64,000 bases of DNA from assembly GCF_034555375.1 (NCBI RefSeq), contig NZ_CP140706.1, forward strand, positions 3,525,001-3,589,000, given 5' to 3'. Shown in pieces: positions 3,907 to 24,410 of the stretch. Position 1 is the first letter of the stretch, and each line of letters starts with the position of its first letter. This DNA comes from Pseudomonas sp. B33.4 (GTDB lineage: Bacteria; Pseudomonadota; Gammaproteobacteria; Pseudomonadales; Pseudomonadaceae). Under the pieces are notes generated by a model. It worked only from the letters and a program-made list of their open reading frames with translations. It was not told the origin of the DNA and did no database searches. A program made the position numbers and the translations under genes.

Positions 3907-4389
3907 TAACAGTCACCCCATCAACAAACTGCCCGCACCACAACAGTGCGACCGCCCTTCCCGCTAGCACAAAATCGTGACCGAGCAGTCACTGTTTTGG
4001 CCCTCTCTTGCCGAAAAACCTGCACTTCGTCGGTGCGTTTTCCTCTCCAGAGCACGGTTTCCGTTAACGGCAAACCGATTGTCGAACAATTTACCCATTT
4101 GCTCTGGCCCGCTCTAGGATCTGGCCTAGACTGGTTTTTTCGGGGTACGACCTGTCGGTCACATTGCGGAAAAAAACTCGAAACTTTTGCCCAAAGCGGC
4201 GGGTCATCTGAAAGGCAGGGCCAAAGCGACTGGTGCAATCCTTGCAAAGGCCTCTACACCCATTCTGCTTGCGCGTGTTGGGTAGCGTTTGCTCACCGAT
4301 GCGTGGCGCGTTTGCGCCCGGCCACAGGATGTGGCCATGGACATCACTTGTTCCAGACAAGAATCAGATCAACAAAACGGGAGTTACAT
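3907..4389 (+). other. Long glgA upstream region (promoter and leader)
   Basis: This stretch of 483 bases carries no convincing gene. The glgA frame stays open back to about 3946, but the encoded sequence is Cys/Arg-rich, low-quality and lacks family similarity, so I treat it as non-coding. It holds a small inverted repeat CTAGG-N6-CCTAG at 4114-4129 and the hairpin at 4320-4336, annotated separately. No sigma-70 promoter stands out. Confidence 0.6.
4320..4336 (+). promoter_or_regulatory. Candidate RsmA/CsrA-binding hairpin in the glgA leader
   Basis: GGCCAC-AGGAT-GTGGCC forms a 6-bp stem with a 5-nt loop that presents AGGA, the geometry preferred by RsmA/CsrA proteins. The core A-GGATGT matches the 3' half of the in vitro selected consensus. 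Two further GGA motifs follow: ATGGA at 4337-4341 and ACGGGAG at 4377-4383, which is the ribosome binding site of glgA. Several GGA sites including the Shine-Dalgarno is the pattern of CsrA-repressed mRNAs. Binding is inferred. Confidence 0.5.
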
Positions 4390-5976
4390 ATGATCAGTGC
4401 GGCATTGGATATTCAGGGAGAGCGTGCTCAGCAGGCGGTTGGTGAATCGAGCACCGTTAGTGTTCCCAGCAGCCGACAGATCAACGTCCCCGGCACCAAA
4501 ACGCTGACTCCGGTAGCGAGCCAGAACCCGAACAAAAAGAAAGTGCTGTTCGTCACCTCGGAAATCGCCGACCTGGTGAAAACCGGTGGTCTGGGTGACG
4601 TCTCCGCTGCCCTGCCCCGCGCCATGGCCCATCTGCACGATGTGCGCGTGCTGATCCCCGGTTACCCGCAAGTGATGCACAGCGAGAACCCGATCCACAT
4701 CATCGGCGAACTCGGTGGCCACGCAGCGCTGCCGCCGTGCAAGATCGGCCGCATGGACATGCCCGACGGTCTGGTCATCTACGTGCTGATCTGCCCGGAA
4801 CTCTACGAGCGCGAAGGCTCGCCCTACGGCGCCAACAACGGTCGCGACTGGCCGGACAACCACATTCGTTTCGCCCGCCTCGGTCTGGCCGCTGCCGACA
4901 TCGCCGCCAACCTCGCACAAATCCACTGGTGCCCGGATCTGGTGCACGCCCATGACTGGCCGGCCGGTCTGGCCCCGGCTTATATGCACTGGCGCGGGCA
5001 GCGTACGCCGACCCTGTTCACCATTCACAACCTCGCTTATCAAGGCGTCACCAGCCTCGGTTCCTGCCCTGAACTGGGGATTCCCAACCATGCCCTGCAA
5101 CAGGAAGGCATGGAGTTCTACGGCAAGATGTCGTTCCTCAAGGCCGGCATGGCCTATTCGAGCCACATCACCACGGTCAGCGCGACCTATGCGCAGGAAA
5201 TCACCACCCCGGATTTCGGCTGCGGCCTCGACGGTTTTCTCGCCGCCAAGACCCAGCAAGGCTTGCTCAGCGGTATCCCGAATGGCATCGATGAGAGCTG
5301 GGACGCTGCCACCGATCCGCACCTGTTCGCGCCATTTGCCATTGGTGACTGGGAAGGCAAAGCGGTCAACGCCGCGCACGTGCGTGAGCTATTTGAATTG
5401 AATGACTCTGAAGGCCCGCTGTTCGCCGTGGTGTCGCGACTGGTCTATCAGAAAGGTCTCGACCTGACGATCGCGGTATCCGAGTACATCGTTGAAAACG
5501 GCGGCCAGATCGCGATCATCGGTCGCGGCGAACCGGAAGAAGAGCAAGCCATGCGTGAACTGGCGCTGCGCTTCCCCGGCCAGATAGGCGTGCGCATCGG
5601 CTTCAATGAAACCGACGCCCGCCGTATGTTCGCCGGCAGCGACTTCCTGCTGATGCCTTCGCGTTACGAGCCTTGCGGTTTGAGCCAGATGTACGCCCAG
5701 CGTTTCGGCTCGCTGCCGGTGGCGCGCAACACCGGCGGGCTGGCCGACACCATTGAAAACGGCGTCACCGGTTTCCTCTTCGATGAATCCACCGCCGAAA
5801 GCTATCAGGAAGCCCTGAGCCGCGCGTTCAAGGTTTTCGCGTTCCCCGAACTGCTCAATGCCATGCGTTGCCGGGCGATGGCGGCGCCGTTCAACTGGTG
5901 CAAAGCGGTTGAACCGTACGCCGAACTCTACGAACGACTGGTGGCCAAGGCACTGGGTAAAACGCACCACAAGTAA
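4390..5976 (+). CDS. glgA: Glycogen synthase (GT5 starch synthase family)
   Basis: The product has 528 residues and transfers glucose from a nucleotide sugar to an alpha-1,4-glucan. The start at 4390 is preceded by GGGAG. The nucleotide-sugar motif KTGGLGDV is at residues 64-71, giving an N-terminal extension of about 49 residues compared with the Escherichia coli enzyme (KVGGL at 15-19). Other family blocks are PDLVHAHDWPAGLAPAY, FTIHNLAYQG and, near the end, PSRYEPCGLSQMYAQRFGSLPVARNTGGLADT, which holds the catalytic Glu and the GGL loop. It is the first gene of glgA-treZ-malQ-treY. No glgC lies in the window, so the donor supply is not visible. Confidence 0.95.
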   Translation: MISAALDIQGERAQQAVGESSTVSVPSSRQINVPGTKTLTPVASQNPNKKKVLFVTSEIADLVKTGGLGDVSAALPRAMAHLHDVRVLIPGYPQVMHSENPIHIIGELGGHAALPPCKIGRMDMPDGLVIYVLICPELYEREGSPYGANNGRDWPDNHIRFARLGLAAADIAANLAQIHWCPDLVHAHDWPAGLAPAYMHWRGQRTPTLFTIHNLAYQGVTSLGSCPELGIPNHALQQEGMEFYGKMSFLKAGMAYSSHITTVSATYAQEITTPDFGCGLDGFLAAKTQQGLLSGIPNGIDESWDAATDPHLFAPFAIGDWEGKAVNAAHVRELFELNDSEGPLFAVVSRLVYQKGLDLTIAVSEYIVENGGQIAIIGRGEPEEEQAMRELALRFPGQIGVRIGFNETDARRMFAGSDFLLMPSRYEPCGLSQMYAQRFGSLPVARNTGGLADTIENGVTGFLFDESTAESYQEALSRAFKVFAFPELLNAMRCRAMAAPFNWCKAVEPYAELYERLVAKALGKTHHK

Positions 5977-5994: not shown

Positions 5995-7797
5995 ATGCCG
6001 TTACGGTCTTCTGAAAACTGGCCCCACGGCGCGATCATGCTGGACGCCGAACACACACAGTTCGCGCTGTGGGCGCCGGATGCTTTTTACGTCAGTGTCG
6101 AACTGGAAAACGGCCAGTCGCTGCCAATGCTGTCTCAGGCGGACGGCTGGTTTGTGATCAAGGCCCGTTGCCCGGCGGGCACCCGCTACCGCTACAACAT
6201 CGACGGCGAACTGGAGGTGCCCGACCCGGCCTCCAGGGCGCAGGATGGTGATCTCGACCGCCGCAGCGTGGTGGTCGATCCGCTGGCCTATCAATGGAGG
6301 CACAGCAGCTGGCACGGTCGGCCGTGGAGCGAAGCGGTGATCTACGAGTTGCACGTGGGTGCGCTGGGCGGGTTTGCCGAGGTCGAACAACATCTGGCGC
6401 GCCTCGCGGGCCTGGGTATTACCGCCATCGAGCTGATGCCATTGGCGCAATTTCCCGGCGAACGCAATTGGGGCTACGACGGTGTTTTGCCCTACGCACC
6501 GCAAGCCTCCTACGGCACGCCGGAACAACTAAAGCACCTGATCGACAGTGCCCACGGCCACGGTCTGGCGGTCATTCTTGATGTGGTCTACAACCACTTC
6601 GGCCCCGACGGCAATTACCTGCACCGTTACGCCAAAGGCTTTTTCCGCGAAGACAAACACACGCCATGGGGCGCGGCGATCGATTTTCGCCGCAGCGAAG
6701 TGCGCGAGTTCTTCATCGAAAATGCGCTGATGTGGTTACTCGAATACCGCTTCGACGGTTTGCGCCTGGATGCGGTGCATGCCATCGAAGACCCGGATTT
6801 CCTCACCGAGATGGCTCAGCGTATCCGCGCGCAGATCGACCCGAACCGGCATGTCTGGCTGACCGTGGAGAACGAGCTGAACCAGTCGAGCCTGCTCGAA
6901 TACGATTACGACGCGCAGTGGAACGACGACGGTCATAACGCCCTGCACGTGCTGCTGACCGGTGAAACCGACGCGTACTACGCCGATTACGCTTTGCAAC
7001 CGACCGAGCAACTGGTGCGCTGCCTGAGTCAGGGTTTTGTTTTCCAGGGGCACATCACCCGTCACGGCGAACCTCGCGGCGAGCCCAGCGAACACCTGCC
7101 ATCCACCGCATTCGTGCTGTTCTTGCAGAACCACGATCAGATCGGCAACCGTGCGCTCGGCGAGCGCCTGCATCATCTGGCCGATCCGCGCGCCGTGCAG
7201 GCAGCGACCGTGCTGTTGCTGCTGTCACCGATGATTCCGCTGATGTTCATGGGCGACGAGTTTGCCGCCGAGCAGCCGTTCCTGTTTTTCACCAGTCACC
7301 ACGGCGAACTGGCGGAGTTGGTGCGAGAAGGTCGACGCAATGAATTCGCCGCGTTTAGCGCCTTCACCGATCCGCACAAGCGCGAACAGATTCCCGACCC
7401 GAATGCCGACAAAACCTTCCACGCCTCACAGCCAAGGTTGGTCGGCCATGGCAGCGCAAAACAGCAGGCCACCCTGGAGCTGTACCAGAAGCTGCTGCAA
7501 TTTCGCCATCAATACATCATCCCCCATCTGTCCGGCACGCAAGCGCTCGGTGCCCACATGCTCGGTTATGGCGCGGTCAGCGCACGCTGGCGTCTGGGCA
7601 ATGGCAGCGAGCTGCGAATTGACCTGAACCTCAGCGATACGCCAGTGGTCAACCCTCCACAGACCGAGGCCGTGTGGTTGTTTCAACAGCCACCCACCGT
7701 CGATCTATCGGAATCGGGCGTACTGCCCGCGTATTGCGCGCTTGTCAGCCTCACGGCCGCAACCCCTTTGCAACCTCTGGATGGAGAGCGCCTATGA
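5995..7797 (+). CDS. treZ: Malto-oligosyltrehalose trehalohydrolase
   Basis: The product has 600 residues of GH13, with an N-terminal early-set domain followed by the (beta/alpha)8 barrel. It hydrolyses maltooligosyl-trehalose to trehalose plus a shortened chain, acting after TreY. The catalytic residues are Asp259 (DGLRLDAVHAI), Glu292 (TVENELN) and Asp381 (LQNHDQIGNR). The block YELHVGALGGFAEVEQHL is characteristic of TreZ and distinguishes it from GlgB. A strong GGGAGG precedes the ATG. It starts 18 bp after glgA and its TGA overlaps the malQ ATG (ATGA). Confidence 0.95.
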   Translation: MPLRSSENWPHGAIMLDAEHTQFALWAPDAFYVSVELENGQSLPMLSQADGWFVIKARCPAGTRYRYNIDGELEVPDPASRAQDGDLDRRSVVVDPLAYQWRHSSWHGRPWSEAVIYELHVGALGGFAEVEQHLARLAGLGITAIELMPLAQFPGERNWGYDGVLPYAPQASYGTPEQLKHLIDSAHGHGLAVILDVVYNHFGPDGNYLHRYAKGFFREDKHTPWGAAIDFRRSEVREFFIENALMWLLEYRFDGLRLDAVHAIEDPDFLTEMAQRIRAQIDPNRHVWLTVENELNQSSLLEYDYDAQWNDDGHNALHVLLTGETDAYYADYALQPTEQLVRCLSQGFVFQGHITRHGEPRGEPSEHLPSTAFVLFLQNHDQIGNRALGERLHHLADPRAVQAATVLLLLSPMIPLMFMGDEFAAEQPFLFFTSHHGELAELVREGRRNEFAAFSAFTDPHKREQIPDPNADKTFHASQPRLVGHGSAKQQATLELYQKLLQFRHQYIIPHLSGTQALGAHMLGYGAVSARWRLGNGSELRIDLNLSDTPVVNPPQTEAVWLFQQPPTVDLSESGVLPAYCALVSLTAATPLQPLDGERL

Positions 7798-9872
7798 GCG
7801 ATGCGCAACTGGAAATTCTTGCCAGCCGAGCCGGCCTCGCCGTCGACTGGATCGACGCCAACGGCCGTCCGCAAAAAGTCGCCCCGGCGGTGCTGCGCAA
7901 TGTCCTGATCGGCCTCGGCCACCCCGCCAGCACGGCGCAGGAAATCGACGCCAGCCTGTTGGAACTGCAAGCCGTTCAACAAGACCGTCACTTGCCGCCG
8001 CTGTTGACCGCCGATGTTGGTGTCGGCGTGGATCTGGCGCGCTACTTTGCACCGGAAACGCCTTGTGAAATCCACCTTGAAGACGGCTCACGGCTGAACC
8101 TGAAACTCGATTCCGAAGCGATACTGCCGGGGCTGATCCCGGTCGGCTATCAACAAGTGCATATCGGCGATCAATATTTCACCCTGGCCGTGGCCCCGGA
8201 GCGCTGCTTCAGCGTCGGCGATGCGGTGGATAATCCGATCCCCCGCGCCTGGGGACTGAGTGCGCAACTGTATGCCTTGCGCCGCGCCGGCGACGGCGGT
8301 TTCGGCGATACCCAAGCACTGGAAGATCTGGTCCGCGTGGCCGGTGAGCGCGGCGCCGATGCCCTGGCGATCAGCCCGCTGCACGCCATGTTCAGCGCTG
8401 ATACCGGGCGCTACAGCCCTTATTCGCCCTCGAGCCGGTTGTTCCTCAACTCTCTTTACGCAGCACCTGGCGCGATTCTCGGCGAGCGCGCCTTGCGTGA
8501 TGCGGTCGACGCGGCCGGCCTGGCCGAGCAGTTTGCGCAACTGGAAGATCTAACCCTGATCGACTGGCCGAGCGCCGCCGACGCCAAGCAGAAACTCTTG
8601 CAGGCGTTGTACGAAGGTTTCATCGCCGGTGACCATCCCTTGCACCCGGATTTCGCCAGCTTCCGCCACGCCGGTGGCGAGGCACTGGAAAACCACTGCC
8701 GTTTCGAAGCGATTCAGGAAATGCGCGCCGCCCGTGGTGAAAACCTCGACTGGCGGCAATGGCCGGAACACTGGCACGACCCACGCGGCGCGGCGCTCGA
8801 AGCGTTTGCCGAGGAATACGCCGAACGCATCGGCTATTTCGCTTTCTGCCAATGGCTGATCCACCGTTGCCTGGAGCGCGCGCAAACCGCCGCCCGCAGC
8901 GCAGGGATGGGCATTGGCCTGATCGCCGATCTGGCAGTAGGTGCCGATGGCGCCGGCAGTCAGGCCTGGAGTTTTCAGGATGAACTGCTGGCCTCGCTGA
9001 CCGTCGGCGCACCGCCGGACATTCTCAATCGCTCGGGCCAAGGCTGGGGTATTTCGGCATTCTCCCCGGAGGGCCTGATCCGCAACGGTTTCCGTGCGTT
9101 CATTGACATGCTGCGGGCAAACTTCGCCCACGCTGGCGGCTTGCGAATTGACCATGTGATGGGCCTGCAACGGCTGTGGGTGATTCCCAACGGCTCGGCA
9201 CCTGCCGATGGCGCGTACCTGTATTACCCGGTCGATGACTTGCTGCGCCTGCTGACTCTTGAATCTCATCGCCACCAGGCGATTGTCCTCGGTGAAGACC
9301 TCGGCACCGTGCCCGATGGTCTTCGCGAAAAACTGATCGCCCGCTCCATGCTCGGCATGCGCGTGCTGCTGTTCGAGCAGGACAACACGCATTTCAAACC
9401 GATTCTCGACTGGCCGGACAACGCACTGGCGACCACCAGCACCCATGATCTGCCGACGCTCAACGGCTGGTGGCATGGCCGCGACATCGACTGGAACGCG
9501 CGCTTGGGTTTTGTCGATGCCAACGGTGAAATCGAATGGCGCCATCACCGCCAGCGTGAGCGCGAAGGCTTGCGCAGCGCTCTCAGCCAGGACCCGCAGA
9601 ACTTTCGCGAGGAATCCCACGAGGCCGATCAAGTGGTCGATGCCGCTGTGCGTTTCCTGGGCCACACCCGCGCGCCGCTGGTGCTGTTGCCGCTGGAGGA
9701 TGCGCTGGGCATCAACGAACAAGCGAACCTGCCGGGCACGATCGACACCCATCCGAACTGGTCACGGCGCTTGCCCGGCACCAGTGAAGCGCTGCTCGAT
9801 GGCGCGGATGCGGCGCGACGCCTGGAACTACTCGCCTGCGCGCGTCTTCAGGCTGCCGAGCGTGACCAATGA
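7794..9872 (+). CDS. malQ: 4-alpha-glucanotransferase (amylomaltase)
   Basis: The product has 692 residues of GH77. The start at 7794 overlaps the treZ stop and has GGAGAG upstream; the frame is open for 40 more codons but those lie inside treZ. The N-terminal region (MSDAQLEILASRAGLAVDWIDANG) is the one seen in proteobacterial MalQ. Catalytic residues are Asp453 (LRIDHVMG), Glu501 (LGEDLGTVP) and Asp552 (STHDLPTLNGWW). It shuffles maltodextrin chains, producing chains long enough for TreY or for branching. ATGA overlap with treY. Confidence 0.95.
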   Translation: MSDAQLEILASRAGLAVDWIDANGRPQKVAPAVLRNVLIGLGHPASTAQEIDASLLELQAVQQDRHLPPLLTADVGVGVDLARYFAPETPCEIHLEDGSRLNLKLDSEAILPGLIPVGYQQVHIGDQYFTLAVAPERCFSVGDAVDNPIPRAWGLSAQLYALRRAGDGGFGDTQALEDLVRVAGERGADALAISPLHAMFSADTGRYSPYSPSSRLFLNSLYAAPGAILGERALRDAVDAAGLAEQFAQLEDLTLIDWPSAADAKQKLLQALYEGFIAGDHPLHPDFASFRHAGGEALENHCRFEAIQEMRAARGENLDWRQWPEHWHDPRGAALEAFAEEYAERIGYFAFCQWLIHRCLERAQTAARSAGMGIGLIADLAVGADGAGSQAWSFQDELLASLTVGAPPDILNRSGQGWGISAFSPEGLIRNGFRAFIDMLRANFAHAGGLRIDHVMGLQRLWVIPNGSAPADGAYLYYPVDDLLRLLTLESHRHQAIVLGEDLGTVPDGLREKLIARSMLGMRVLLFEQDNTHFKPILDWPDNALATTSTHDLPTLNGWWHGRDIDWNARLGFVDANGEIEWRHHRQREREGLRSALSQDPQNFREESHEADQVVDAAVRFLGHTRAPLVLLPLEDALGINEQANLPGTIDTHPNWSRRLPGTSEALLDGADAARRLELLACARLQAAERDQ

Positions 9873-12637
9873 ATCAAACGCTCATCCAGCCCTTGCGCGC
9901 GACCTTGCGTCTGCAATTTCATAAAGGTTTCACCCTCGAACAAGCCGTGCCACTGGTGCCGTACTTTGCCCGGCTCGGCATCAGCCACATTTACGCCTCG
10001 CCGCTGCTCGCGGCGCGGGCTGGTTCCATGCACGGTTACGACGTGGTCGACCCGACCCAGGTCAACCCGGAGCTTGGCGGTGAGCCCGCGCTTCGGCGCT
10101 TGGTCAGCACCCTGCGTGAACACAACATGGGGCTGATCCTCGACATCGTCTCCAACCACATGGCGGTCGGTGGCAGCGACAACCCGTGGTGGCTCGACCT
10201 GCTGGAATGGGGGCGACTGAGCCCTTATGGCGAGTTCTTCGATATTCAGTGGCACTCGCCCGATCCGTTGATGGAGGGCCAGTTGTTGCTGCCATTTCTT
10301 GGCAGCGATTATGGAGTTGCGCTGCAGGAAGGCACGCTGAAACTGCGTTTCAACCCAGACACCGGCAGCTTTTACGTCGAGCATTACGATCATCACTTCC
10401 CGATCTGCCCGAACGATTACGGTGAACTGCTCAAATCCGAGAAAGCGCTGAAGCCTCTGGCCGATCGCTTCAGCACCCTCAGCTATCAGACCGATGCCCA
10501 CTCGTTGGCGACTCCGCTCAAGGAAGAGTTGCGGCAATTGGCGACGGATTCTTCAATCGCTGAAGCCATTGAAAACAACCTCAAACACTTCGATTCAACC
10601 AGCGAAGAAGGCTTCCACACACTGCATGCGTTGTTGGAGCGTCAGAGCTATCGCCTCGCCAGTTGGCGCACCGCCGCAGATGACATCAACTGGCGGCGCT
10701 TCTTCGACATCAACGAGCTCGGCGGTTTGCGTGTTGAGCGCCCAGCGGTGTTCGAGGCCACCCACGGCAAGATCTTCCAGTTGATCGCCGAAGGTCTGGT
10801 CGACGGTTTGCGCATCGACCACATCGACGGCCTCGCCGACCCGCGCGGTTACTGCCGCAAACTGCGCCGCCGCGTCGATCTGCTGGCACCGGGCAGGCAT
10901 TTGCCGATCTACGTCGAAAAGATCCTCGGCGCCGGCGAAACCCTGCACCGCGACTGGGCCGTGGAGGGCACCACCGGTTATGAATTCATGAATCAGCTGT
11001 CGCTGCTGCAACACGATCCCGATGGTGAATACGTACTCGGTGATCTCTGGCAACGCCGCACCGAACGCCCGGCCGCCTTTATCGAAGAGGCGCAACTGGC
11101 GCGCCAGCAGATCCTCAACGGCTCTCTCGCCAGTGACTGCGAAAGCGTCGCCCAGGCGCTGCTGCAAGTCGCCCGCGATGACCTGATGACCCGCGACCTG
11201 ACGCTGGGCGCGATCCGCCGGGTGTTGCAGGCGTTGATCGTGCATTTCCCGGTGTATCGCACTTACATCAGCGCGATGGGTCGCTCCGAACAGGACGAAA
11301 GATTTTTCCAGCAGGCCATGGACGGTGCGCGGCAAACCCTCAGCGAAGCCGACTGGCCGGTACTCGATTGCGTCGCCGCCTGGCTCGGTGGCACACCGTG
11401 GCGGCACAAACCGCGCGGGCGCTCACGCAAGATGCTCAAACATGCCTGCGTGCGCTTTCAGCAACTGACGTCACCAGCGGCAGCCAAAGCCGTGGAAGAC
11501 ACGGCGCTGTATCGCTCGGCCGTGCTGCTGTCGCGCAATGACGTCGGCTACAACACCGAACAGTTCAGCGCGCCGGTCAGCGACTTTCATGCGGTCAATC
11601 AGCAACGGTTGAATGAATTTCCCGACAACCTGCTGGCCACCGCAACCCACGACCATAAACGCGGCGAAGACACCCGCGCGCGGCTGGCCGTGCTCAGCGA
11701 GCGCAGCCATTGGTACGCCGAGCAGATCGAACTGTGGCGCGCCCTCGCCCGTCCAGTGCGGGTTGACGATCAAATGCCGTCGAGTGGCGATGAGCTGATT
11801 CTCTACCAAGCGTTGCTCGGCAGTTGGCCGCTGCATCTGCGCGATGACGATCAGGCCGGGTTCGCCGACTACGCCAAACGCATCTGGCAATGGCAACAGA
11901 AAGCCCTGCGCGAGGCCAAGCTGCAAAGCAGTTGGAGTGCGCCCAACGAAGCCTATGAAAACGCCGCACAGGCATTCACCGAAAAACTCCTTACCGGTGA
12001 GGAAGGCGAACTGCTGCGCGCCGCACTGAGCAAGACCGTCAACAGCATCGCCGCTGCCGGCGCCCTCAATGGTTTGGCGCAAACCTTGCTGCGCATGACC
12101 GTGCCGGGGGTGCCGGATCTGTATCAGGGCAACGAGTTCTGGGACTTCAGCCTGGTTGATCCGGACAACCGTCGGCCGGTGGATTACGCCGCTCGCGAAC
12201 ACGCCTTGCAGGAGCCATTGCCACCTGTGGAATTGCTGGCGAACTGGCGTGACGGGCGCATCAAGCAAGCCTTGATCGCCGAGGTGCTGAACCTGCGCGT
12301 CGAGCATGCCGAGCTGTTTCGGCGTGGCACCTACCAAGCCTTGGAAGTACTGGGCAATCAGTCGCACAACGTGCTCGCGTTTGCCCGCGAACACGAGGGG
12401 AAGCAGGCCATCGTGATCGTGCCGATCCGTTGCGCCACGCTGCTGGAAAACAGTGCTGTACCTCAGGTCGATGCGCTGCGCTGGGGCGATACGCGGGTGG
12501 TTTTACCGTTCGCCGCCTCTGACACAAACCTGAAGGGACTTTTTTCAAGCAGCGCAGTCACAAAAAACAGGGAGCTGAATATCAGCGACGCGCTGGGGGA
12601 TGTCCCGGTCAATCTCTTTATCCAACACTTAACGTAA
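9869..12637 (+). CDS. treY: Malto-oligosyltrehalose synthase
   Basis: The product has 922 residues of GH13. It converts the reducing-end alpha-1,4 bond of a glucan into the alpha,alpha-1,1 bond of trehalose. The N-terminus RLQFHKGFTLEQAVPLVPYFARLGI and the block YASPLLAARAGSMHGYDVVDPTQVNPELGG are diagnostic. The catalytic residues are Asp317 (LRIDHIDGLADP) and Glu350 (YVEKILGAGE). Family-specific ATHDHKRGEDTRARL and VPGVPDLYQGNEFWDFSLVDPDNRRPVDY occur further on. The gene is coupled to malQ by ATGA and completes the TreY/TreZ branch of the operon. Confidence 0.96.
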   Translation: MNQTLIQPLRATLRLQFHKGFTLEQAVPLVPYFARLGISHIYASPLLAARAGSMHGYDVVDPTQVNPELGGEPALRRLVSTLREHNMGLILDIVSNHMAVGGSDNPWWLDLLEWGRLSPYGEFFDIQWHSPDPLMEGQLLLPFLGSDYGVALQEGTLKLRFNPDTGSFYVEHYDHHFPICPNDYGELLKSEKALKPLADRFSTLSYQTDAHSLATPLKEELRQLATDSSIAEAIENNLKHFDSTSEEGFHTLHALLERQSYRLASWRTAADDINWRRFFDINELGGLRVERPAVFEATHGKIFQLIAEGLVDGLRIDHIDGLADPRGYCRKLRRRVDLLAPGRHLPIYVEKILGAGETLHRDWAVEGTTGYEFMNQLSLLQHDPDGEYVLGDLWQRRTERPAAFIEEAQLARQQILNGSLASDCESVAQALLQVARDDLMTRDLTLGAIRRVLQALIVHFPVYRTYISAMGRSEQDERFFQQAMDGARQTLSEADWPVLDCVAAWLGGTPWRHKPRGRSRKMLKHACVRFQQLTSPAAAKAVEDTALYRSAVLLSRNDVGYNTEQFSAPVSDFHAVNQQRLNEFPDNLLATATHDHKRGEDTRARLAVLSERSHWYAEQIELWRALARPVRVDDQMPSSGDELILYQALLGSWPLHLRDDDQAGFADYAKRIWQWQQKALREAKLQSSWSAPNEAYENAAQAFTEKLLTGEEGELLRAALSKTVNSIAAAGALNGLAQTLLRMTVPGVPDLYQGNEFWDFSLVDPDNRRPVDYAAREHALQEPLPPVELLANWRDGRIKQALIAEVLNLRVEHAELFRRGTYQALEVLGNQSHNVLAFAREHEGKQAIVIVPIRCATLLENSAVPQVDALRWGDTRVVLPFAASDTNLKGLFSSSAVTKNRELNISDALGDVPVNLFIQHLT

Positions 12638-12664: not shown

Positions 12665-12979
12665 ATGAGTACCGACGATAAACGCATTCGCGAATTCGCC
12701 TATCAAATCTGGGAATCGGAAGGTCAGCCTGACGGTCAGGAAGCGCGCCACTGGGAGATGGCGCGCAAACTGGCCGAAGCCGAGGCGCTGGCACCGAAGA
12801 AGCCACCGAAAGCGGCTGGCAGCAAAACCGCTGGCAAGACTGCCGAAACCAAGACGCCGGCCGCCAAACCGAAACCTGCGGCCAAAGCCAAGCCCGCCAG
12901 CGCCGCCAAAGTGATTCCCCCGGGCGAAAAAGCCACCGAGAAAAAGCCCCGAGCGCCGAAGAAGCCTTCGGCGATCTGA
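12665..12979 (+). CDS. DUF2934 domain-containing small basic protein
   Basis: The product has 104 residues. Residues 1-45 form the DUF2934 domain (RIREFAYQIWESEGQPDGQEARHWEMARKLAEAE). The rest is a Lys/Ala/Pro-rich low-complexity tail resembling histone-H1-like tails, probably disordered. The start has AGGAG 8 nt upstream and lies 27 bp after treY. The domain is common in small proteins linked with glycogen/trehalose clusters; its role is unknown. It could bind nucleic acid or a polyanion through the tail, which is speculation. Confidence 0.8.
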   Translation: MSTDDKRIREFAYQIWESEGQPDGQEARHWEMARKLAEAEALAPKKPPKAAGSKTAGKTAETKTPAAKPKPAAKAKPASAAKVIPPGEKATEKKPRAPKKPSAI

Positions 12980-13203: not shown

Positions 13204-15363
<2,160 letters not shown>

Positions 15364-15364
15364 T

Positions 15365-16363
15365 ATGGATCTGCACAATTATCTCGCCCGGCGTCCAGCG
15401 GATTATCCGCACACCGTAGCCCTCGGAGGTTGCCTACGGGCGCTGGTCGAGGCCGGGCTGGATCGTTTGCCGTTACCGGGCAGTGGCCGCACGCTGGAGC
15501 GTTTTCAGCGCCTGGCGGAGGTCGCTGGGCATGACCTCGGTTTGTGCAAACTGTTCGAAGGCCATACCGACGCGCTGGCGATCATCGAGCAACTGGGCGG
15601 CACACCGACGCCGGGCAGCACGTGGGGCATGTGGGCGGCTGAACCGCCACAGGCACGAGTCAAGGTCAGTCCGGCCGGGCACATGGTCGCGTTGCACGGG
15701 CGCAAGGCGTGGTGCTCCGGTGCTGCGGTGCTCAGCCATGCCTTGCTGACCGCGTGGGACGCCGATGATCAGCAACAACTGGTGGCGGTCGCCCTCGACC
15801 AACCCGGTGTGACCATCACCGTGCAAGGCTGGCAAGCCGTGGGCATGGGCGCCACTGGCAGCGTCGAGGTGCTGTTCGACGGCGCCGAAGCGCAAGCCAT
15901 CGGCAACCCCGCTGATTACCTGCAACGCCCGGGTTTCTGGCAGGGCGGAATCGGCATTGCTGCATGCTGGTACGGCGCCGCGCGGCAAATTGCCGAAGCC
16001 TTGCGCACGCAGTGTGGGCAACGTCCGGAACCGCATGCGCTGGCGCATCTCGGCGCGGTCGACAGCGCTTTGCAGGCCGCCGCCGATGTATTGCGTTTCA
16101 GCGCCTTGCACATCGATGCGCATCCCGACGACAACGCGGAACTGCTCGCCCGGCGTGCTCGCGCGGTGGTCGAACAGTCGGCCGAACAGGTGATGCGTGA
16201 GGTCGGTCGCGCGCTTGGTGCGGGGCCGTTTTGCAAGGATCGCCACTTTGCCCGGCTCAGCGCCGACCTGCCGGTGTTTCTGCGCCAAAGTCATGCCGAG
16301 CGCGATCTGGCCGCGCTCGGGCAATTGGTGGCCGGGCACTCTACGGAGGCATGGGCACTATGA
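15365..16363 (+). CDS. Acyl-CoA dehydrogenase-like flavoprotein
   Basis: The product has 332 residues from the ATG at 15365, which has GAAGAAG upstream; GTG 15347 and ATG 15350 inside glgX are alternatives. The middle part (GSTWGMWAAEPP...LHGRKAWCSGAAVLSHALLTA, then VSPAGHMVALHGRKAWCSGA) resembles the beta-domain of acyl-CoA dehydrogenases, and the C-terminal half is the helical bundle. It is shorter than the usual 380 residues. The family oxidises acyl-CoA thioesters using FAD, but members in sugar clusters can be amine or nitro oxidases. The catalytic Glu is not identifiable by eye. It is coupled to the deacetylase gene by ATGA. Confidence 0.75.
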   Translation: MDLHNYLARRPADYPHTVALGGCLRALVEAGLDRLPLPGSGRTLERFQRLAEVAGHDLGLCKLFEGHTDALAIIEQLGGTPTPGSTWGMWAAEPPQARVKVSPAGHMVALHGRKAWCSGAAVLSHALLTAWDADDQQQLVAVALDQPGVTITVQGWQAVGMGATGSVEVLFDGAEAQAIGNPADYLQRPGFWQGGIGIAACWYGAARQIAEALRTQCGQRPEPHALAHLGAVDSALQAAADVLRFSALHIDAHPDDNAELLARRARAVVEQSAEQVMREVGRALGAGPFCKDRHFARLSADLPVFLRQSHAERDLAALGQLVAGHSTEAWAL

Positions 16364-17118
16364 AAACCAATCCGATTGTCGGTCAGGGCACGAGCCTGCA
16401 TCAGTGGCAGGCTTCGCGGCACCTGGCGGAGCTGGACAGCATCGACATCCTCAGTCTGGTGCCACCGGGCGCACGCGCAGTCATTATCGCGCCGCACCCG
16501 GACGACGAAGTGCTCGGTTGTGGTGGCTTGCTGCAATTGCTCGCCGCCGCTGGCAGGTCTCTGCAATTGATTTCCGTGACCGACGGCAGCGCCAGCCACC
16601 CCGGTTCCAGTCGTTGGCCAGTAGAACGGTTGAGCGTGATTCGCCCACAGGAATCCGCCGAAGCGCTGCGCCGACTCGGTCTGCCGATGCATCGCGTGAA
16701 GTGGCTGCGCGGCGGCTTCACTGACACTCAGGTCGCGGCGCAGGAAGCGCAGTTGGTCGAGTTCATCGAGCGTCATCTGCGCCCTGACGACGTGCTTTTC
16801 GCCACTTGGAGCGAGGACGGCCATTGCGACCACGAAGCCGTTGGCCGCGCCAGTGCCGAAGCGGCGCGTCGGGTTGGCGCAACCTGCCATGAACTGCCGG
16901 TGTGGACGTGGCACTGGGCAACGCCGGAAGACGCCTTTGTACCGTGGCAGCGGGCGCGCAAGATTCTCCTGACGCCAGCGCAAGTGGCGCGCAAACGCCA
17001 CGCGGTGCACGCCTTTGCCAGTCAACTGGAAGGCGATCCGGATGCAGGACTCGGCCCGGTGCTCGCGCCTTATGTGCTTGATCGCCTGCTGCAACCCTTT
17101 GAAGTGGTGTTTCTATGA
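16360..17118 (+). CDS. PIG-L (LmbE) family N-deacetylase
   Basis: The product has 252 residues. ATG 16360 overlaps the previous stop and has GGAGG 10 nt upstream; ATG 16351 is too close to it. The zinc site motif HPDDE occupies residues 46-50 and the second metal motif HCDH residues 155-158, so the metal ligands (His46, Asp49, His158), the general base Asp48 and His155 are all present. PIG-L enzymes remove acetyl groups from N-acetylglucosamine-type sugars in glycolipids and small molecules. The substrate here is unknown, but the neighbours (N-methyltransferase and glycosyltransferase types) point to a sugar conjugate. Confidence 0.88.
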   Translation: MKTNPIVGQGTSLHQWQASRHLAELDSIDILSLVPPGARAVIIAPHPDDEVLGCGGLLQLLAAAGRSLQLISVTDGSASHPGSSRWPVERLSVIRPQESAEALRRLGLPMHRVKWLRGGFTDTQVAAQEAQLVEFIERHLRPDDVLFATWSEDGHCDHEAVGRASAEAARRVGATCHELPVWTWHWATPEDAFVPWQRARKILLTPAQVARKRHAVHAFASQLEGDPDAGLGPVLAPYVLDRLLQPFEVVFL

Positions 17119-17714
17119 GTGTCGAGGATCGCTATTTCGACGGCCTGTTTGCCGGCAACGACGACCCTTGGGCGTTCCGCGAGCGCTGGTACGAACAGCG
17201 CAAACGCGCGATCACCCTCGCCGCCCTGCCACGGCCGCACTATCGGGCAATCTTCGAGCCGGGCTGCGCCAACGGCGAATTGAGCGCCGAACTCGCCGGC
17301 CGTTGTGATCGGTTGTTGTGCTGTGACACGGCCAGCGCAGCGGTGACCTTGGCGCGCACGCGGCTGAGCCTGTTCGATCACGCCGAAGTGCGGCAAAACC
17401 GTCTTCCCGGCGACTGGCCGGAGGAAAAATTCGACCTGATTGTATTTAGCGAGATCGGCTACTACCTCGACGGCGCAGATCTGACAGACGTGATCCGTCG
17501 GGCTAGTGATTGCCTGACTGCCGACGGTCAGTTCCTCGCCTGCCACTGGCGTCCGCCCATCGACGGCTGCCCGCTGAATGCGCGGCAGGTTCACGACCTG
17601 ATCCACGAAAAACTGCATCTGCCGCGTCTGGTTCTGCATCAGGAAGCGGACTTCATCCTTGAGATATGGAGCCGCGAACCGCGCTCGGTGGCGGCGCTGG
17701 AGGGGTTGCGATGA
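17115..17714 (+). CDS. NodS-like SAM-dependent methyltransferase
   Basis: The product has 199 residues, the length of NodS. It opens with DPWAFRERWYEQRKRAITLAALP, typical of NodS-family proteins, followed by the SAM-binding motif I in IFEPGCANGELSAEL and by FDLIVFSEIGYYL. NodS N-methylates the deacetylated glucosamine of Nod factor precursors in rhizobia. Whether this protein is an N-methyltransferase cannot be read from sequence, but lying directly after a deacetylase gene (ATGA overlap) fits methylation of the freed amine. It also overlaps the glycosyltransferase start. Confidence 0.85.
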   Translation: MSVEDRYFDGLFAGNDDPWAFRERWYEQRKRAITLAALPRPHYRAIFEPGCANGELSAELAGRCDRLLCCDTASAAVTLARTRLSLFDHAEVRQNRLPGDWPEEKFDLIVFSEIGYYLDGADLTDVIRRASDCLTADGQFLACHWRPPIDGCPLNARQVHDLIHEKLHLPRLVLHQEADFILEIWSREPRSVAALEGLR

Positions 17715-18397
17715 TCGGCATTCTGATCCCGGCACACAACGAAGAAGACTTGCTCGACGAATGCCTGAGCGCGGCCCTGCGCGCCAGCCGGCATGGCTTG
17801 CTGGCCGGCGAGCGTGTTGAAGTGCTGGTGGTGCTCGACAGTTGCAACGACCGCTCGGCGCAGATTGTCAGCAACTATCCGGTGCTGAGTCTGCACATCG
17901 ACGCCCGCAATGTCGGCCAGGCGCGCGCGGCTGGCGCACAGCTGTTGCTGGAGCGCGGTGCGCGCTGGATCTCCTGTTCGGACGCCGACAGCCGCGTCGC
18001 CGATGACTGGCTGGTGGCACAGCTGGGCTTGGGGGCAGACGCCGTGTGCGGTACCGTCACCGTCGAGCACTGGCACGAGTCGTTCGATGCGGCGGCGCAA
18101 ATCCGCTACCACCGGCATTACCAGGCCTGCGATGGCCATCGGCATATCCACGGTGCCAATCTGGGCATCAGCGCTGACGCCTACCGCTGGGCCGGAGGCT
18201 TTAAACCGCTGGCCTGCGACGAAGATGTGCAGTTGGTGCGGGAACTGGAACTGGACGGTGCCAACATCGCCTGGAGCCATCGTCCGCAAGTGCTGACCAG
18301 CGCTCGCTTCGACAGCCGTGCGCGGGGTGGCTTTGGTGACTATCTGCGAAATCTGGCACAGATAGAGCAAAAAAGAGCGGATCAGATTGATCTGTGA
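17711..18397 (+). CDS. Family 2 glycosyltransferase
   Basis: The product has 228 residues, a single GT-A domain without membrane segments. ATG 17711 overlaps the previous stop. Landmarks are ILIPAHNEEDLLDECL at the N-terminus (nucleotide binding), SCSDADSRVADDW with the Asp-x-Asp metal site, and GGFKPLACDEDVQLVRELELDG with the catalytic ED. It should transfer a sugar from a nucleotide donor to an acceptor made or modified by its neighbours. It is the fourth gene of the overlapping set. Confidence 0.88.
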   Translation: MIGILIPAHNEEDLLDECLSAALRASRHGLLAGERVEVLVVLDSCNDRSAQIVSNYPVLSLHIDARNVGQARAAGAQLLLERGARWISCSDADSRVADDWLVAQLGLGADAVCGTVTVEHWHESFDAAAQIRYHRHYQACDGHRHIHGANLGISADAYRWAGGFKPLACDEDVQLVRELELDGANIAWSHRPQVLTSARFDSRARGGFGDYLRNLAQIEQKRADQIDL

Positions 18398-18553
18398 CGC
18401 GACGAACTTCACTTCATGAGCAATACTCTGCTGCGCGGCAATCCAGGGTTCGGAGCGTCGCAAGGCATTCAACCAGCCTTCACGGGTCCGTAGCGCCTGG
18501 CGATCATCGCCGCGCACATGACTGAGGGCGAAACCACACAAGGACGTCACACC
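18398..18553. other. Gap between glycosyltransferase and second PIG-L gene
   Basis: These 156 bases break the chain of overlapping genes. On the minus strand they read without a stop as a coding-like stretch (for example REGWLNALRRSEPWIAAQQS) beginning at an ATG near 18550, but that frame then runs antisense through the glycosyltransferase gene. It may be a remnant of a lost gene or chance. The 3' part provides AGGAC upstream of the next start. Confidence 0.4.
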
Positions 18554-19312
18554 ATGAAACCGTTATCCCTCAGCGACACCAGCCTGCCGGCGCAAATCTG
18601 GAACAGCGCCCCGCAACTGGACAATATTCCCGTCATCAATACCCGCAGCTTGGTGCCCGACGGTGCCCGTGCCGTGGTCATCGCACCGCATCCGGGCGAT
18701 GAAGTGGTCACCTGCGGCGGCCTGCTGCAATTACTTTCCAGCCTCGGTCATCCGCTGCAACTGCTCTCCATCACCGATGGCAGTGCCAGCCATCCAGGTT
18801 CACGGCAATGGTCGGAAAAACGCCTGAGCGTGTTCCGTCCACAAGAAAGCGTCGAAGCCTTGCGCCGCCTCGGCCTGCCGATGCACAGCCTGAAATGGGT
18901 ACGCGGCGGCTTCACCGATAACGCCCTGTGCGAACAGCAAACGCAAGTGACCGAGTTCATCAGCCGCTACCTGCGCCCCGGCGACGTGGTGTTCAGCACC
19001 TGGCGCGGCGATGGCAACGACGACCATGAAGCGGTGGGCCGGGCCAGTGCGCAAGCAGCGCAACAGGCCGGCGCGACCTTTCATGATGTGCCGGTGTGGG
19101 CCTGGCACTGGCCGGAGCGCGACCAGCAACTGATCCCTTGGGAACGCGCGCGCAAACTGCGCCTCGACACCTGGACCGTCGCGCGCAAGAGTCACGCTAC
19201 CCACGCCTATGCCAGCCAGCTCAACGGCGAACCGGCGATCGGCATTGCGCCGATGCTGCCGCCGGTGATTCTCGAAAGAATGCGTTTGCCCTACGAAATC
19301 GTCTTTGTCTGA
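18554..19312 (+). CDS. PIG-L family paralogue lacking catalytic residues
   Basis: The product has 252 residues, the same length as the PIG-L protein encoded at 16360-17118, and aligns with it without gaps by eye. The start at 18554 follows AGGACG. The first motif reads HPGDE instead of HPDDE (residue 48, the general base, is Gly) and the second reads NDDH instead of HCDH (residue 155 is Asn). The three metal ligands His46, Asp49 and His158 are kept. It may therefore be a metal-binding pseudoenzyme, a lectin-like or regulatory partner, or an enzyme with altered chemistry. A longer start at 18518 is possible but lacks a ribosome site. Confidence 0.85.
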   Translation: MKPLSLSDTSLPAQIWNSAPQLDNIPVINTRSLVPDGARAVVIAPHPGDEVVTCGGLLQLLSSLGHPLQLLSITDGSASHPGSRQWSEKRLSVFRPQESVEALRRLGLPMHSLKWVRGGFTDNALCEQQTQVTEFISRYLRPGDVVFSTWRGDGNDDHEAVGRASAQAAQQAGATFHDVPVWAWHWPERDQQLIPWERARKLRLDTWTVARKSHATHAYASQLNGEPAIGIAPMLPPVILERMRLPYEIVFV

Positions 19313-19323
19313 CGCCGTTTAGG

Positions 19324-19413
19324 GTGGGAGCGAGCCTGCTCGCGAAAGCGGTGGTTCTATCAACTGATGTATTGGATTTGCCGACGCCTTCGCGAGCAGG
19401 CTCGCTCCCACAG
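19324..19413. repeat. REP pair (GTGGGAGCGAG type)
   Basis: Two inverted copies with the core GAGCCTGCTCGCGA and GTGGGAG ends facing outward follow the second PIG-L gene and separate it from the next transcription unit. Both arms belong to the G/C-richer subtype. Confidence 0.92.
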
Positions 19414-20429: not shown

Positions 20430-20482
20430 GATTCATGGCACACCCAAGGATGAATTCCCCGAATTTGCCGTAGGGAATGACC

Positions 20483-23020
20483 ATGCCGCGCTACTCCACA
20501 CCTCTGCGGTCACTACCGCACCTCTTGCTCCTGCCTGCTTCTCTGCTGATGTTGACCAGCCACCCCGCTTCTGCGGCATGCAACCTGGTGCCCGGACCCG
20601 GCAATGACAACTTCACCTGTGACAGCGGCACCAGCGGTTCACTGACGGATCTCGCCGGCAACAACAGCCTGACCTTCCCCGCCAACGGCACTGGCCAGAT
20701 CAATGGCAGCGTGACTTTCGGCGCAGGTGCCGACCGGGTCGAGATCAACTCCGGCGTCATCACCGGTGCGGTCAGTCAGGGCAACGGCGTCGATGATTTC
20801 GTCATGAACGGCGGTTCAATCGGTTCACTGGCCCAAGGCGACAGCCGCGATACGTTCCTGATGACCGGTGGCACCATCGTCGGCGCCTTCGAGGACGGCG
20901 ATGTCGCGCGCATGACCGGTGGCACGATCGGCCGGGTCGACATGAAACTCGACAACAACATTTTCGACATGTCCGGCGGGCAGATTCTCGGCAATCTGGT
21001 GACCGGGTTCGGCACCGATACGATCATCGTTTCCGGCGGCCGCATCGGCGGCAACATCAGTGTCAGCGGCGGTAACGACAGCATCACCGTCAGTGGTGGG
21101 GAAATCGTCGGCGAGATTCGCGCCAGCGTCGGCAATGACCGTTTCCTGTGGGATGGCGGCGGCATTATCCGCTCGGCGATCCTGATGGACGTCGGCGATG
21201 ACACGGCTACCCTGCGCAATCTTGGCGACAGCATTCTCACGCTGACGCCCAGCGTGGATGGCGGCGTCGGCACCGATACGTTGACACTGGACAACACGCG
21301 CACCGCCCTGCCCGCGCGCTTGATCAATTGGGAAACAGTCAACCTGAGCAATGCCTCGCAGCTTGATCTGGGTTCGTCCAGCCTGGTGCTGGGTGACGCG
21401 GGAACCGGCACGGGCGCGTTGAACATCGACGCCAGCAGCACACTGGTTTCCACTCAGGGCAGCGTTGCGCCAGCGCTGACGGGACAAAGCGTGACGCTCA
21501 ACAACGCCGGGATCATCGACCTGACACAAGGCAACAGCCGCACCAACGACACACTGACCGTGCAAGGCAACTACGTCGGCAACCGTGGTCAGTTACTGCT
21601 GCAAAGCACCGTTGCTGGTGATGATTCGGCAAGCGACAGACTGGTCGTCAACAACGGCAGCCTGGAGGGTTCGACGGTTATCGGTGTCAGCAATGTCGGC
21701 GGTCTGGGCGCACTGACTCAGGTCAATGGCATTGAACTGGTGCAGGCACAAGGCGGCGCCGTCAGCAGCAATACAGCGTTTACTCTCAGCGGCCCGGTGT
21801 CTGCCGGCGCGTACGATTACTACCTGTTCAAGGGTGGCGTCACCGCCGGCACCGAGAACAACTGGTATCTGCGCTCAGCCGTTGTCGCACCGCAATTGAT
21901 GAGCGTGCCCAATCCCGATCCGGCATTACCGCCGCTTCTGGTTCCGGTCGTGGCCACACCCATTGCAGCGGCCATTACCCCGCTCGACGGCGAATCCGGC
22001 GAAGCGCTGTCCATCGCCTCGCTGCCGGTGTTACCTGCCGCCGTGGCCGGTGCCGCGCCAATTCCTCTGTATCGCCCGGAAGTACCGACCTGGTCGGTGT
22101 TGCCGCCCGCCGCCGCGCAACTGACGCTGAATGCACTGGGCACGTTTCATGATCGTCAGGGCGATCAGCGCCTGCTCAGCGAAACCGGCGCATTTGGCGC
22201 CGGTTGGGGCCGGGTCTACGGCAAGAATCTCGAGCAGACCTGGGCTGGTACGGTGACTCCGCGTCTGGACGGCTCGCTCAATGGCTTTCAGGTCGGCAAT
22301 GATCTGTACAGCTCGCAGACTTCCGGCGGCCAGAACCAGCGCGTGGGGTTCTTTGTCGGCCACAGCCGTTTGCAGGGTGATGTCGACGGTTTCAACGAGG
22401 GCTTCCAGCACAACAGCGCCGGCAAGATCAAACTCGAAGGCGACAGCTATGGCCTGTACTGGACGCTGACCGACCCTTACGGCTGGTACGTCGACACCGT
22501 GGTGATGGGCACCCGTTTTGACGGCGACAACCATTCCGACCGCGGCGTCAAACTGGATAATCGCGGGCACGCGCTGACCTTGTCGGCCGAAGCCGGTTAT
22601 CCATTGCCGATCAGTGATACGTGGGTGATCGAGCCGCAGGCGCAGGTCATCCACCAGAAAATCTCCCTCGACAGCCAGGACGATGGCATTTCGCGCGTCT
22701 CGTTCGATTCCGACGGTGCCTGGACCGGCCGCCTCGGTGCCCGCCTCAAGGGCCGTTATCAAGTCAGCGGGCTGCCGGTAGAACCGTATTTGCGCGCCAA
22801 TCTATGGCATACGTTTTCCGCTACTGACTCGGTGACATTCGGCGCCAGCGATGTCATCAGCACCGAACAGAAATCCTCGACAGCAGATATTGGCCTGGGC
22901 GTAGTGTTGACCCTCGACCGCGCCGTCAGTGTGTACGCCAGTACCGATTACAGCAGCAATATTGACAGTACTGACGTGCGCGGCGTGGTCGGCAATCTGG
23001 GTGTGCGCATTAGCTGGTAG
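20483..23020 (+). CDS. Autotransporter with repeat passenger and outer-membrane beta-barrel
   Basis: The product has 845 residues. ATG 20483 is preferred over ATG 20477 because the TAGGGA ribosome site ends at 20476. A signal peptide ends at HPASAAC. Residues 70-250 hold about eight imperfect repeats of about 20 residues (MTGGTIVGAF, MTGGTIGRVD, MSGGQILGNL, VSGGRIGGNI, VSGGEIVGEI), typical of a right-handed beta-helix passenger. A Pro-rich linker near residue 500-540 leads to a barrel of about 270 residues ending in the aromatic LGVRISW. It is a type V secretion protein; the passenger's function is not evident. Its barrel is closely related to that encoded at 23343. Confidence 0.9.
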   Translation: MPRYSTPLRSLPHLLLLPASLLMLTSHPASAACNLVPGPGNDNFTCDSGTSGSLTDLAGNNSLTFPANGTGQINGSVTFGAGADRVEINSGVITGAVSQGNGVDDFVMNGGSIGSLAQGDSRDTFLMTGGTIVGAFEDGDVARMTGGTIGRVDMKLDNNIFDMSGGQILGNLVTGFGTDTIIVSGGRIGGNISVSGGNDSITVSGGEIVGEIRASVGNDRFLWDGGGIIRSAILMDVGDDTATLRNLGDSILTLTPSVDGGVGTDTLTLDNTRTALPARLINWETVNLSNASQLDLGSSSLVLGDAGTGTGALNIDASSTLVSTQGSVAPALTGQSVTLNNAGIIDLTQGNSRTNDTLTVQGNYVGNRGQLLLQSTVAGDDSASDRLVVNNGSLEGSTVIGVSNVGGLGALTQVNGIELVQAQGGAVSSNTAFTLSGPVSAGAYDYYLFKGGVTAGTENNWYLRSAVVAPQLMSVPNPDPALPPLLVPVVATPIAAAITPLDGESGEALSIASLPVLPAAVAGAAPIPLYRPEVPTWSVLPPAAAQLTLNALGTFHDRQGDQRLLSETGAFGAGWGRVYGKNLEQTWAGTVTPRLDGSLNGFQVGNDLYSSQTSGGQNQRVGFFVGHSRLQGDVDGFNEGFQHNSAGKIKLEGDSYGLYWTLTDPYGWYVDTVVMGTRFDGDNHSDRGVKLDNRGHALTLSAEAGYPLPISDTWVIEPQAQVIHQKISLDSQDDGISRVSFDSDGAWTGRLGARLKGRYQVSGLPVEPYLRANLWHTFSATDSVTFGASDVISTEQKSSTADIGLGVVLTLDRAVSVYASTDYSSNIDSTDVRGVVGNLGVRISW

Positions 23021-23342: not shown

Positions 23343-24410
23343 ATGAGAACTTCAATCAGCCCACACGAGATCAAAATCACTTTCTGCACAGTGTCGAGTT
23401 CTATCTTGCTGTGCTCATCCATGGAGGCGCAGGCCGGTCCTGCGGCGGATGAAACCACCCCGTGGTATCGCGCGGACGTGCCGGTCATGACACTGCCCGT
23501 GACCGTCATTACCCCCGGCCCGCAACGCTTGAGCCCACGCCCGGACTTGCAGGGGCCGAACCTGATCACCGAAGACCTCGCCCCGTCAGCCTGGGATGAG
23601 TTGTACGGCAGAAGTGCGCGTCAGGCACAAACCGATGTGCTGTCGTCGGGTTACGCAACACCCGGCAGCGGCGACTTCAAAGGCCCAGCCGTACTGACTC
23701 TGCAAAGTGGCAGCCATACCCAGACCATCGGCCTGATCGGCGGCCTCAACCAGATTCAAGCCAATGCCAATGGCCTGCTCACCAGCCGCGCCCTGGCAGA
23801 CCCGAACAGCGACACCCTCAATCTGCAAGGCCAAAGCCTTGGCGCCTATTACAGCCTGAGCGGAGCCCAGGGCTGGCACGTGGACTTGTCCGCCAGTGGT
23901 GGCCGGGTCAGTGGTTTCAGTCGCAACGAACAGGGCGCACGGCAAGCCACCGAGGGCAGCGCACTGACGCTGTCAGTAGAAGGCGGTTATCCGATTGGCC
24001 TGAGCGAAAACTGGGTGGTCGAACCGCAGGCGCAATTGATCAATCAACGCATCACCCTCGACACGCCCTACGCCGGTTCAGGCAATGCCTCGTCCTCCGA
24101 TCTGACGGCGTGGAGCGGCCGCGTCGGTGCACGTTTGAAAGGCAGTTACGATTTGAATGGCCTGCCGGTCGAACCCTATGTGCGCACCAACCTCTGGCAC
24201 ACCGTCTACACCGGCAACACCGTGACGCTGGATCAGGTCGACAAGATCAGCAGCAGCCGCAAGTCATCCACCGTCGAGTTGGGATTGGGTCTGGTGGCGC
24301 GGGTGACGCCGGCGGTAAGCCTGTATGTCAGTGCCGATTACAGCAGCGATGTCGATGACAATGATTTGAACGGGATCATTGGCAGCCTTGGGGTGCGGAT
24401 GCGTTGGTAG
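23343..24410 (+). CDS. Passenger-less autotransporter barrel protein
   Basis: The product has 355 residues: an N-terminal segment of about 85 residues with a weak signal-like stretch (FCTVSSSILLCSSMEAQA), then an autotransporter beta-barrel ending in LGVRMRW. The barrel shares blocks with the preceding autotransporter: WVVEPQAQLINQRITLD, GRVGARLKGSYDLNGLPVEP and RTNLWHTVYTGNTV. No passenger repeats remain; only a Pro-rich stretch of about 50 residues lies between signal and barrel. It is either a duplicate that lost its passenger or a genuine short barrel protein. AAGGTAGA precedes the ATG. Confidence 0.82.
   Translation: MRTSISPHEIKITFCTVSSSILLCSSMEAQAGPAADETTPWYRADVPVMTLPVTVITPGPQRLSPRPDLQGPNLITEDLAPSAWDELYGRSARQAQTDVLSSGYATPGSGDFKGPAVLTLQSGSHTQTIGLIGGLNQIQANANGLLTSRALADPNSDTLNLQGQSLGAYYSLSGAQGWHVDLSASGGRVSGFSRNEQGARQATEGSALTLSVEGGYPIGLSENWVVEPQAQLINQRITLDTPYAGSGNASSSDLTAWSGRVGARLKGSYDLNGLPVEPYVRTNLWHTVYTGNTVTLDQVDKISSSRKSSTVELGLGLVARVTPAVSLYVSADYSSDVDDNDLNGIIGSLGVRMRW

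Follow-up and report, generated by a model that had tools for sequence, protein, structure and literature searches.

The four-gene cassette

The DNA analysed here, referred to below as the window, is a stretch of 64,000 nucleotides from Pseudomonas sp. B33.4, whose 6.6 Mb genome is a single contig. Downstream of the glycogen debranching gene glgX, the forward strand of the window carries a cassette of four genes, encoding a flavoenzyme of the acyl-CoA dehydrogenase (ACAD) superfamily (15350-16363, with alternative starts at GTG 15347 and ATG 15365), a PIG-L deacetylase (PIG-L1; 16360-17118), a NodS-like S-adenosylmethionine-dependent methyltransferase (17115-17714) and a small family 2 glycosyltransferase (GT2; 17711-18397). 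Each gene overlaps the next by the letters ATGA, at 16360-16363, 17115-17118 and 17711-17714. A previous reading of the same DNA (the original prediction) had described four genes overlapping by ATGA behind glgX, between 15365 and 19312. The three junctions within the cassette are exactly as described; the junction between glgX and the flavoenzyme gene, while close, is an ATGA overlap in none of 79 sequences. The span does hold the cassette, which ends at 18397, but 19312 is where a fifth, previously unnamed gene stops, which encodes a second PIG-L protein on the same strand (PIG-L2; 18554-19312).

Conservation of the overlaps was counted over the window and, for each gene pair, those of 80 named Pseudomonas loci that yielded both members; all of the 80 named relatives listed for the window methyltransferase are from Pseudomonas. 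The flavoenzyme and PIG-L genes overlap by ATGA in 77/81 cases, the PIG-L and methyltransferase genes in 73/81, and the methyltransferase and GT2 genes in 65/69. Since the overlaps recur in relatives, they are not the product of chance. The GT2 gene was missing between the methyltransferase and PIG-L2 genes in 13 of the 80 named loci.

Inheritance of the genes was followed by searching for each of them in 57 related genomes, 36 of them Pseudomonas. The flavoenzyme, the methyltransferase and the GT2 (for the GT2, strong matches only) were found in the same 22 of the 36 Pseudomonas genomes, and the remaining 14 lacked all three. Mapped onto a glgX tree covering the 33 genomes in which glgX occurs, their presence changes six times, each time jointly for the three genes. 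Scattering of the genes among relatives, which had been named as the observation that would count against a single unit, was confined to individual members: in G023 and G031 the GT2 gene is remote from the cassette or sits on a separate contig, in G020 it lies 3.6 kb off, and in G003 the PIG-L gene is elsewhere, with the whole set kept in all four genomes. An active-type PIG-L is present without the other cassette genes in G007 and G027.

The association extends beyond the genus to other Proteobacteria. When 249 genomes of the phylum were scanned, 17 flavoenzyme matches reached E<1e-18, and every one had a methyltransferase gene within 1.5 kb. At E<=1e-15, the flavoenzyme was found in 35/349 genomes of the family to which genome G249 belongs, in 18/390 of the order and in 7/369 of the class, these three scans having some genomes in common. 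Outside Pseudomonas, 55 loci in 34 genera were compared, and 48 of them matched all four profiles; the seven incomplete loci are L171, L173, L175, L263, L285, L288 and L292, and L285 is truncated where its contig stops. Judged by this conserved coupling and co-inheritance, the four genes form a single conserved module of predicted biosynthetic function, in keeping with the earlier view of them as a unit. Among the papers listed by searches of the open literature, one of them by locus tag, none concerned the four-gene cassette, which, as far as searched, is apparently undescribed, as had been proposed. Proteins of 968 to 1131 amino acids with a NodS-like domain were also seen in the same phylum (L183-L187), four of the five having GT2-like parts too.

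Families of the encoded proteins

The flavoenzyme, a protein of 337 amino acids, matched in Pfam only the ACAD middle domain, at 27 bits and below the gathering cut-off of 33.3. None of 26 proteins of the cassette family has the catalytic glutamate, whether at the C-terminal motif or at the isovaleryl-type position. By comparison, all seven dehydrogenase-type proteins aligned with it from the same genome carry the glutamate, three at the C-terminal motif and four in a helix, at what we take to be the site used by isovaleryl-CoA dehydrogenase. A 35-row profile of the flavoenzyme had as its best matches MsuC (3e-21) and DszC (2.7e-20), followed by sugar nitrososynthases (7e-16 to 2.6e-14). MsuC, DszC and the nitrososynthases KijD3 and DnmZ, presumably all group D flavin monooxygenases, have the ACAD fold in common with the cassette protein, and its K-A-W-C-S-G-A stretch resembles K-S-F-C-S-G-A of MsuC. 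However, the cassette flavoenzyme is shorter than these enzymes, shares only ~20% identity with them and forms its own clade in the tree, and its C-terminal motif is RQ where MsuC has LHD. Moreover, a 12-row profile did not favour MsuC or DszC, and the fold Z scores were tied between monooxygenases and dehydrogenases. The protein is perhaps monooxygenase-like. As a correction to the earlier designation as acyl-CoA dehydrogenase-like, the label ‘acyl-CoA dehydrogenase’ is probably a misnomer for this gene. It is unlikely that the protein is nonetheless a true dehydrogenase of acyl-CoA or acyl carrier protein substrates, and the product an amino-sugar lipid, given that all 26 family proteins lack the glutamate at both usual sites and that the cassette has neither an acyltransferase match nor a membrane protein.

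PIG-L1 had PF02585 as its sole Pfam match (89.9 bits, cut-off 28.2) and resembles TT1542 and diacetylchitobiose deacetylases. Its HPDDE and DGHCDH motifs are intact, and 80/80 named loci retain the zinc ligands together with the two catalytic residues of HPDDE and DGHxDH. The methyltransferase scored 45 bits against Pfam NodS (gathering score 24) and 51.7 bits against the NodS equivalog NF041650, for which the cut-off is 300. It belongs to the same family as PDB 4isc (E 1.3e-68, residues 24-187), a deposited structure only, whose entry name (‘Methyltransferase’) gives no function; PDB NodS, 3ofj, was more distant (1.7e-8). The GT2, at 228 amino acids, has no QxxRW motif and no membrane-like stretch, its highest 19-residue hydropathy being 1.35. 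As a single sequence it gave no PDB match; its profile matched undecaprenyl-phosphate formamido-arabinose transferase (4e-6), and a structure model was of low confidence, too weak for conclusions. A membrane-like stretch was absent from all five window proteins, i.e., the four of the cassette and PIG-L2, and Pfam gave no acyltransferase, cysteine ligase or thiol acetyltransferase match for any cassette protein.

PIG-L2 is 58% identical to PIG-L1. The roles of its catalytic and zinc-ligand residues are taken here, on our assumption, to be those of MshB. The position of the catalytic base, Asp in PIG-L1, is Gly in 80/80 loci (HPGDE), and the second catalytic His has given way to another residue in 76 loci (Asn in 52, Thr in 12, Ser in 4, Ile in 4, Pro in 2, Val in 1 and Ala in 1); it is kept in L065, L072, L077 and L089. 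Of the three zinc ligands, two are present in every one of the 80 loci and the third in 79. These substitutions suggest that PIG-L2 is a catalytically dead duplicate, a probable pseudoenzyme. The median ratio of nonsynonymous to synonymous substitution rates (dN/dS) relative to the window copy, over 68 loci, was 0.10 for PIG-L2, near the 0.086 of PIG-L1; thus, PIG-L2 is not decaying and is held under purifying selection. PIG-L2 proteins form one clade (100/99) within Pseudomonas PIG-L, with one change on the glgX tree, and stand beside glgX in seven genomes that are free of the cassette (G002, G006, G010, G021, G030, G032 and G035). We therefore view PIG-L2 as a separate protein linked to glgX. 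In the copy at L065:9307-10131 the usual pattern is reversed, with a zinc ligand lost (Gln for His) and the second catalytic His kept. A third PIG-L domain of the window's genome lies in a 511-amino-acid frame at G000:C1:537740-538246 (L003). In the gap between the GT2 and PIG-L2 genes (18398-18553), a minus-strand reading frame had protein-level matches in 33 loci; it runs on antisense through the GT2 gene and may be nothing.

Genomic neighbourhood of the cassette

Neighbouring genes were counted within the fetched stretches around the 55 loci of the 34 genera outside Pseudomonas, and the controls were 40 stretches of ~18 kb, one from each of 40 of these genomes, covering 28 of the genera. 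Genes for disaccharide or alpha-glucan synthesis were found near the cassette at 18/55 loci, in 12/34 genera, and in 1/40 control regions (Fisher p 1.3e-4 by loci and 0.002 by genera on both sides; 6e-4 and 0.006, respectively, without self-matching loci). These genes were otsA (L166, L169, L281-L284, L256 and L273), treYZ, malQ or glg genes (L168, L289, L290, L260, L257 and L276, with glgX alone in L285) and sucrose-phosphate synthase (L171, L177 and L287). In all five loci of genus g28, the genes run on one strand in the order otsB, otsA, flavoenzyme, PIG-L, methyltransferase and GT2, with gaps of less than about 100 bases before the flavoenzyme gene, and G249 has the same order, otsB and otsA and then the cassette, with a gap of ~110. 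The GT20 proteins that were tested there, putative OtsA proteins, scored below the OtsA equivalog cut-off of 565 bits (434 in L282, 548 in L166), and trehalose-phosphatase genes stand beside them; the one at L282:9466-11115, the neighbour of otsB in g28, could represent a variant synthase. Sucrose-phosphate synthase is the first gene of the row in L171. In L257, L276, L285, L287, L256, L273 and L177, the neighbour genes point away from the cassette or lie apart from it. A long-catalase cluster was nearby in 7 genera and a Mn-catalase cluster in 4, each against 0/40 controls (clusters defined by BLAST, with Pfam checked on three and two members, respectively). Judged by this enrichment, the cassette has a tendency to lie within stress islands.

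The original prediction had linked the cassette to glycogen debranching, and one may ask whether its product is a cap or modification on alpha-glucan or glycogen, tied to GlgX. For such a role, glgX abuts the cassette in 16/22 Pseudomonas genomes, and in genera g60 and g471 glgA lies directly upstream on the same strand. In contrast, glgX is not adjacent in the other six Pseudomonas genomes (G003, G009, G015, G020, G024 and G025), and other genera have otsA or sucrose-phosphate synthase instead, neither of which needs a glucan. We consider the glucan cap distinctly improbable. The link to glycogen debranching is a local one, glgX being no conserved part of the cassette, and, on the gene neighbourhoods compared here, the cassette is more generally partnered by trehalose or sucrose than by glgX.

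The neighbourhood in the window itself is rich in trehalose and alpha-glucan genes. From left to right, all on the forward strand, the cassette is preceded by glgA (3946-5976, identified by Pfam), treZ (5995-7797; NCBIfam TreZ 670.8 bits, cut-off 538.8), malQ (7674-9872, identified by Pfam), treY (9869-12637; NCBIfam TreY 935.5 bits, cut-off 498.65), a gene for a DUF2934 protein (12665-12979; PF11154, 49.2 bits) and glgX (13204-15363; TIGR02100 1093.6 bits, cut-off 640.9). The cassette and PIG-L2 are followed by genes for an exo/endonuclease-phosphatase protein and two long proteins. The upstream genes are those of the Pseudomonas treYZ operon, glgA-treZ-malQ-treY-glgX; in the available portions of the papers describing that operon (PMC8982409, PMC8084333, PMC3591346), glgX is its last gene and the cassette is not mentioned. 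Between PIG-L2 and the next gene, at about 19327-19411, there is an inverted repeat with GCGAGCAGGCTCGCTCCCAC arms. We take this repeat to resemble the REP elements of Pseudomonas. The two long proteins (20477-23020 and 23343-24410) are encoded next to each other and are alike in their C-terminal parts, which, as judged by eye, resemble autotransporter beta domains.

A proposed pathway and its alternatives

The enzyme families of the cassette, i.e., a deacetylase, a methyltransferase and a glycosyltransferase, fit the amino-sugar chemistry that was first proposed for it. We favour, with moderate confidence, a cytosolic pathway that makes a modified, N-methylated, flavin-oxidised hexosaminyl conjugate together with stress disaccharides. 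In such a pathway the GT2 would transfer one N-acetylhexosamine to a soluble acceptor, PIG-L1 would remove the acetyl group from the transferred hexosamine, and the NodS-like enzyme would methylate the freed amine. The ACAD-like flavoenzyme would oxidise the amino sugar, by N- or C-oxygenation rather than by acyl-CoA dehydrogenation. The product may be made along with trehalose or sucrose when cells are under osmotic or stationary-phase stress, and the most attractive acceptor would be the disaccharide itself. We infer the order of the steps, the hexosamine donor, the nitrogen as the methylated atom, the oxygenation, the expression under stress and the acceptor. Weighing against this reading, the fetched stretches of 22/34 genera held no disaccharide or alpha-glucan gene.

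The pathways of mycothiol and bacillithiol offer a comparison, in that a PIG-L deacetylase and a glycosyltransferase (MshA-MshB, BshA-BshB) act there on an N-acetylglucosamine conjugate, a pairing that the cassette shares. The cassette might accordingly make a low-molecular-weight protective glycoside of this type, directed against oxidants, and the nearest NCBIfam model of PIG-L1 is indeed BshB1 (TIGR04001, 55.3 bits), with catalase genes among the neighbours. Yet the BshB1 score falls short of the cut-off of 182.5, the glycosyltransferase of the cassette is a GT2 instead, no cysteine ligase or thiol acetyltransferase was among the Pfam matches of the cassette, and a methyltransferase and a flavoenzyme are added, for which, to our knowledge, there is no place in either pathway. 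We regard this possibility as no less doubtful than the glucan cap. A further reading is that the four enzymes share no pathway and are merely co-regulated stress genes of one island, as the presence of catalase and disaccharide genes in the same island, and the many genera without a disaccharide gene nearby, might suggest; conserved translational coupling, and joint gain and loss even in genomes that have a GT2 or PIG-L elsewhere, make it very unlikely.

The original prediction had compared the cassette with the enzymes that build Nod factors, and nodS, nodB and nodC likewise bring together a NodS-superfamily methyltransferase, an N-deacetylase and a GT2. NodB belongs to the polysaccharide deacetylase family, and NodC is a GT2 with membrane segments and QxxRW. 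A lipochitooligosaccharide or chitin-oligomer pathway is hardly credible here, because, for all that the methyltransferase exceeds the Pfam NodS gathering score and recalls 3ofj, it remains far below the NodS equivalog cut-off, PIG-L1 is of a deacetylase family that we take to be distinct from that of NodB, the GT2 is small and has neither QxxRW nor membrane stretches, no acyltransferase was matched, and relatives in 12/34 genera have trehalose or sucrose genes beside them; the analogy was thus not borne out.

Returning to the conjugate made with stress disaccharides, a bolder and rather doubtful extension is that the cassette defines a class of stress protectant, in which trehalose, or sucrose in some lineages, would bear an N-methylated, N-oxygenated glucosamine-type sugar (hydroxylamine- or nitrone-like). 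A widespread four-enzyme cassette would then plug into the disaccharide pathway of its host, and in the Pseudomonas fluorescens group the dead PIG-L duplicate would act as its regulator or as a carrier. For annotation, these results are a warning that the first gene of the cassette is probably misnamed as an acyl-CoA dehydrogenase and that PIG-L2 is probably not a deacetylase. More generally, the cassette, which was found in 34 other genera of the phylum, appears to lack a described product, and the trehalose, sucrose and catalase genes that repeatedly lie next to it suggest a metabolite connected with osmotic or desiccation stress.

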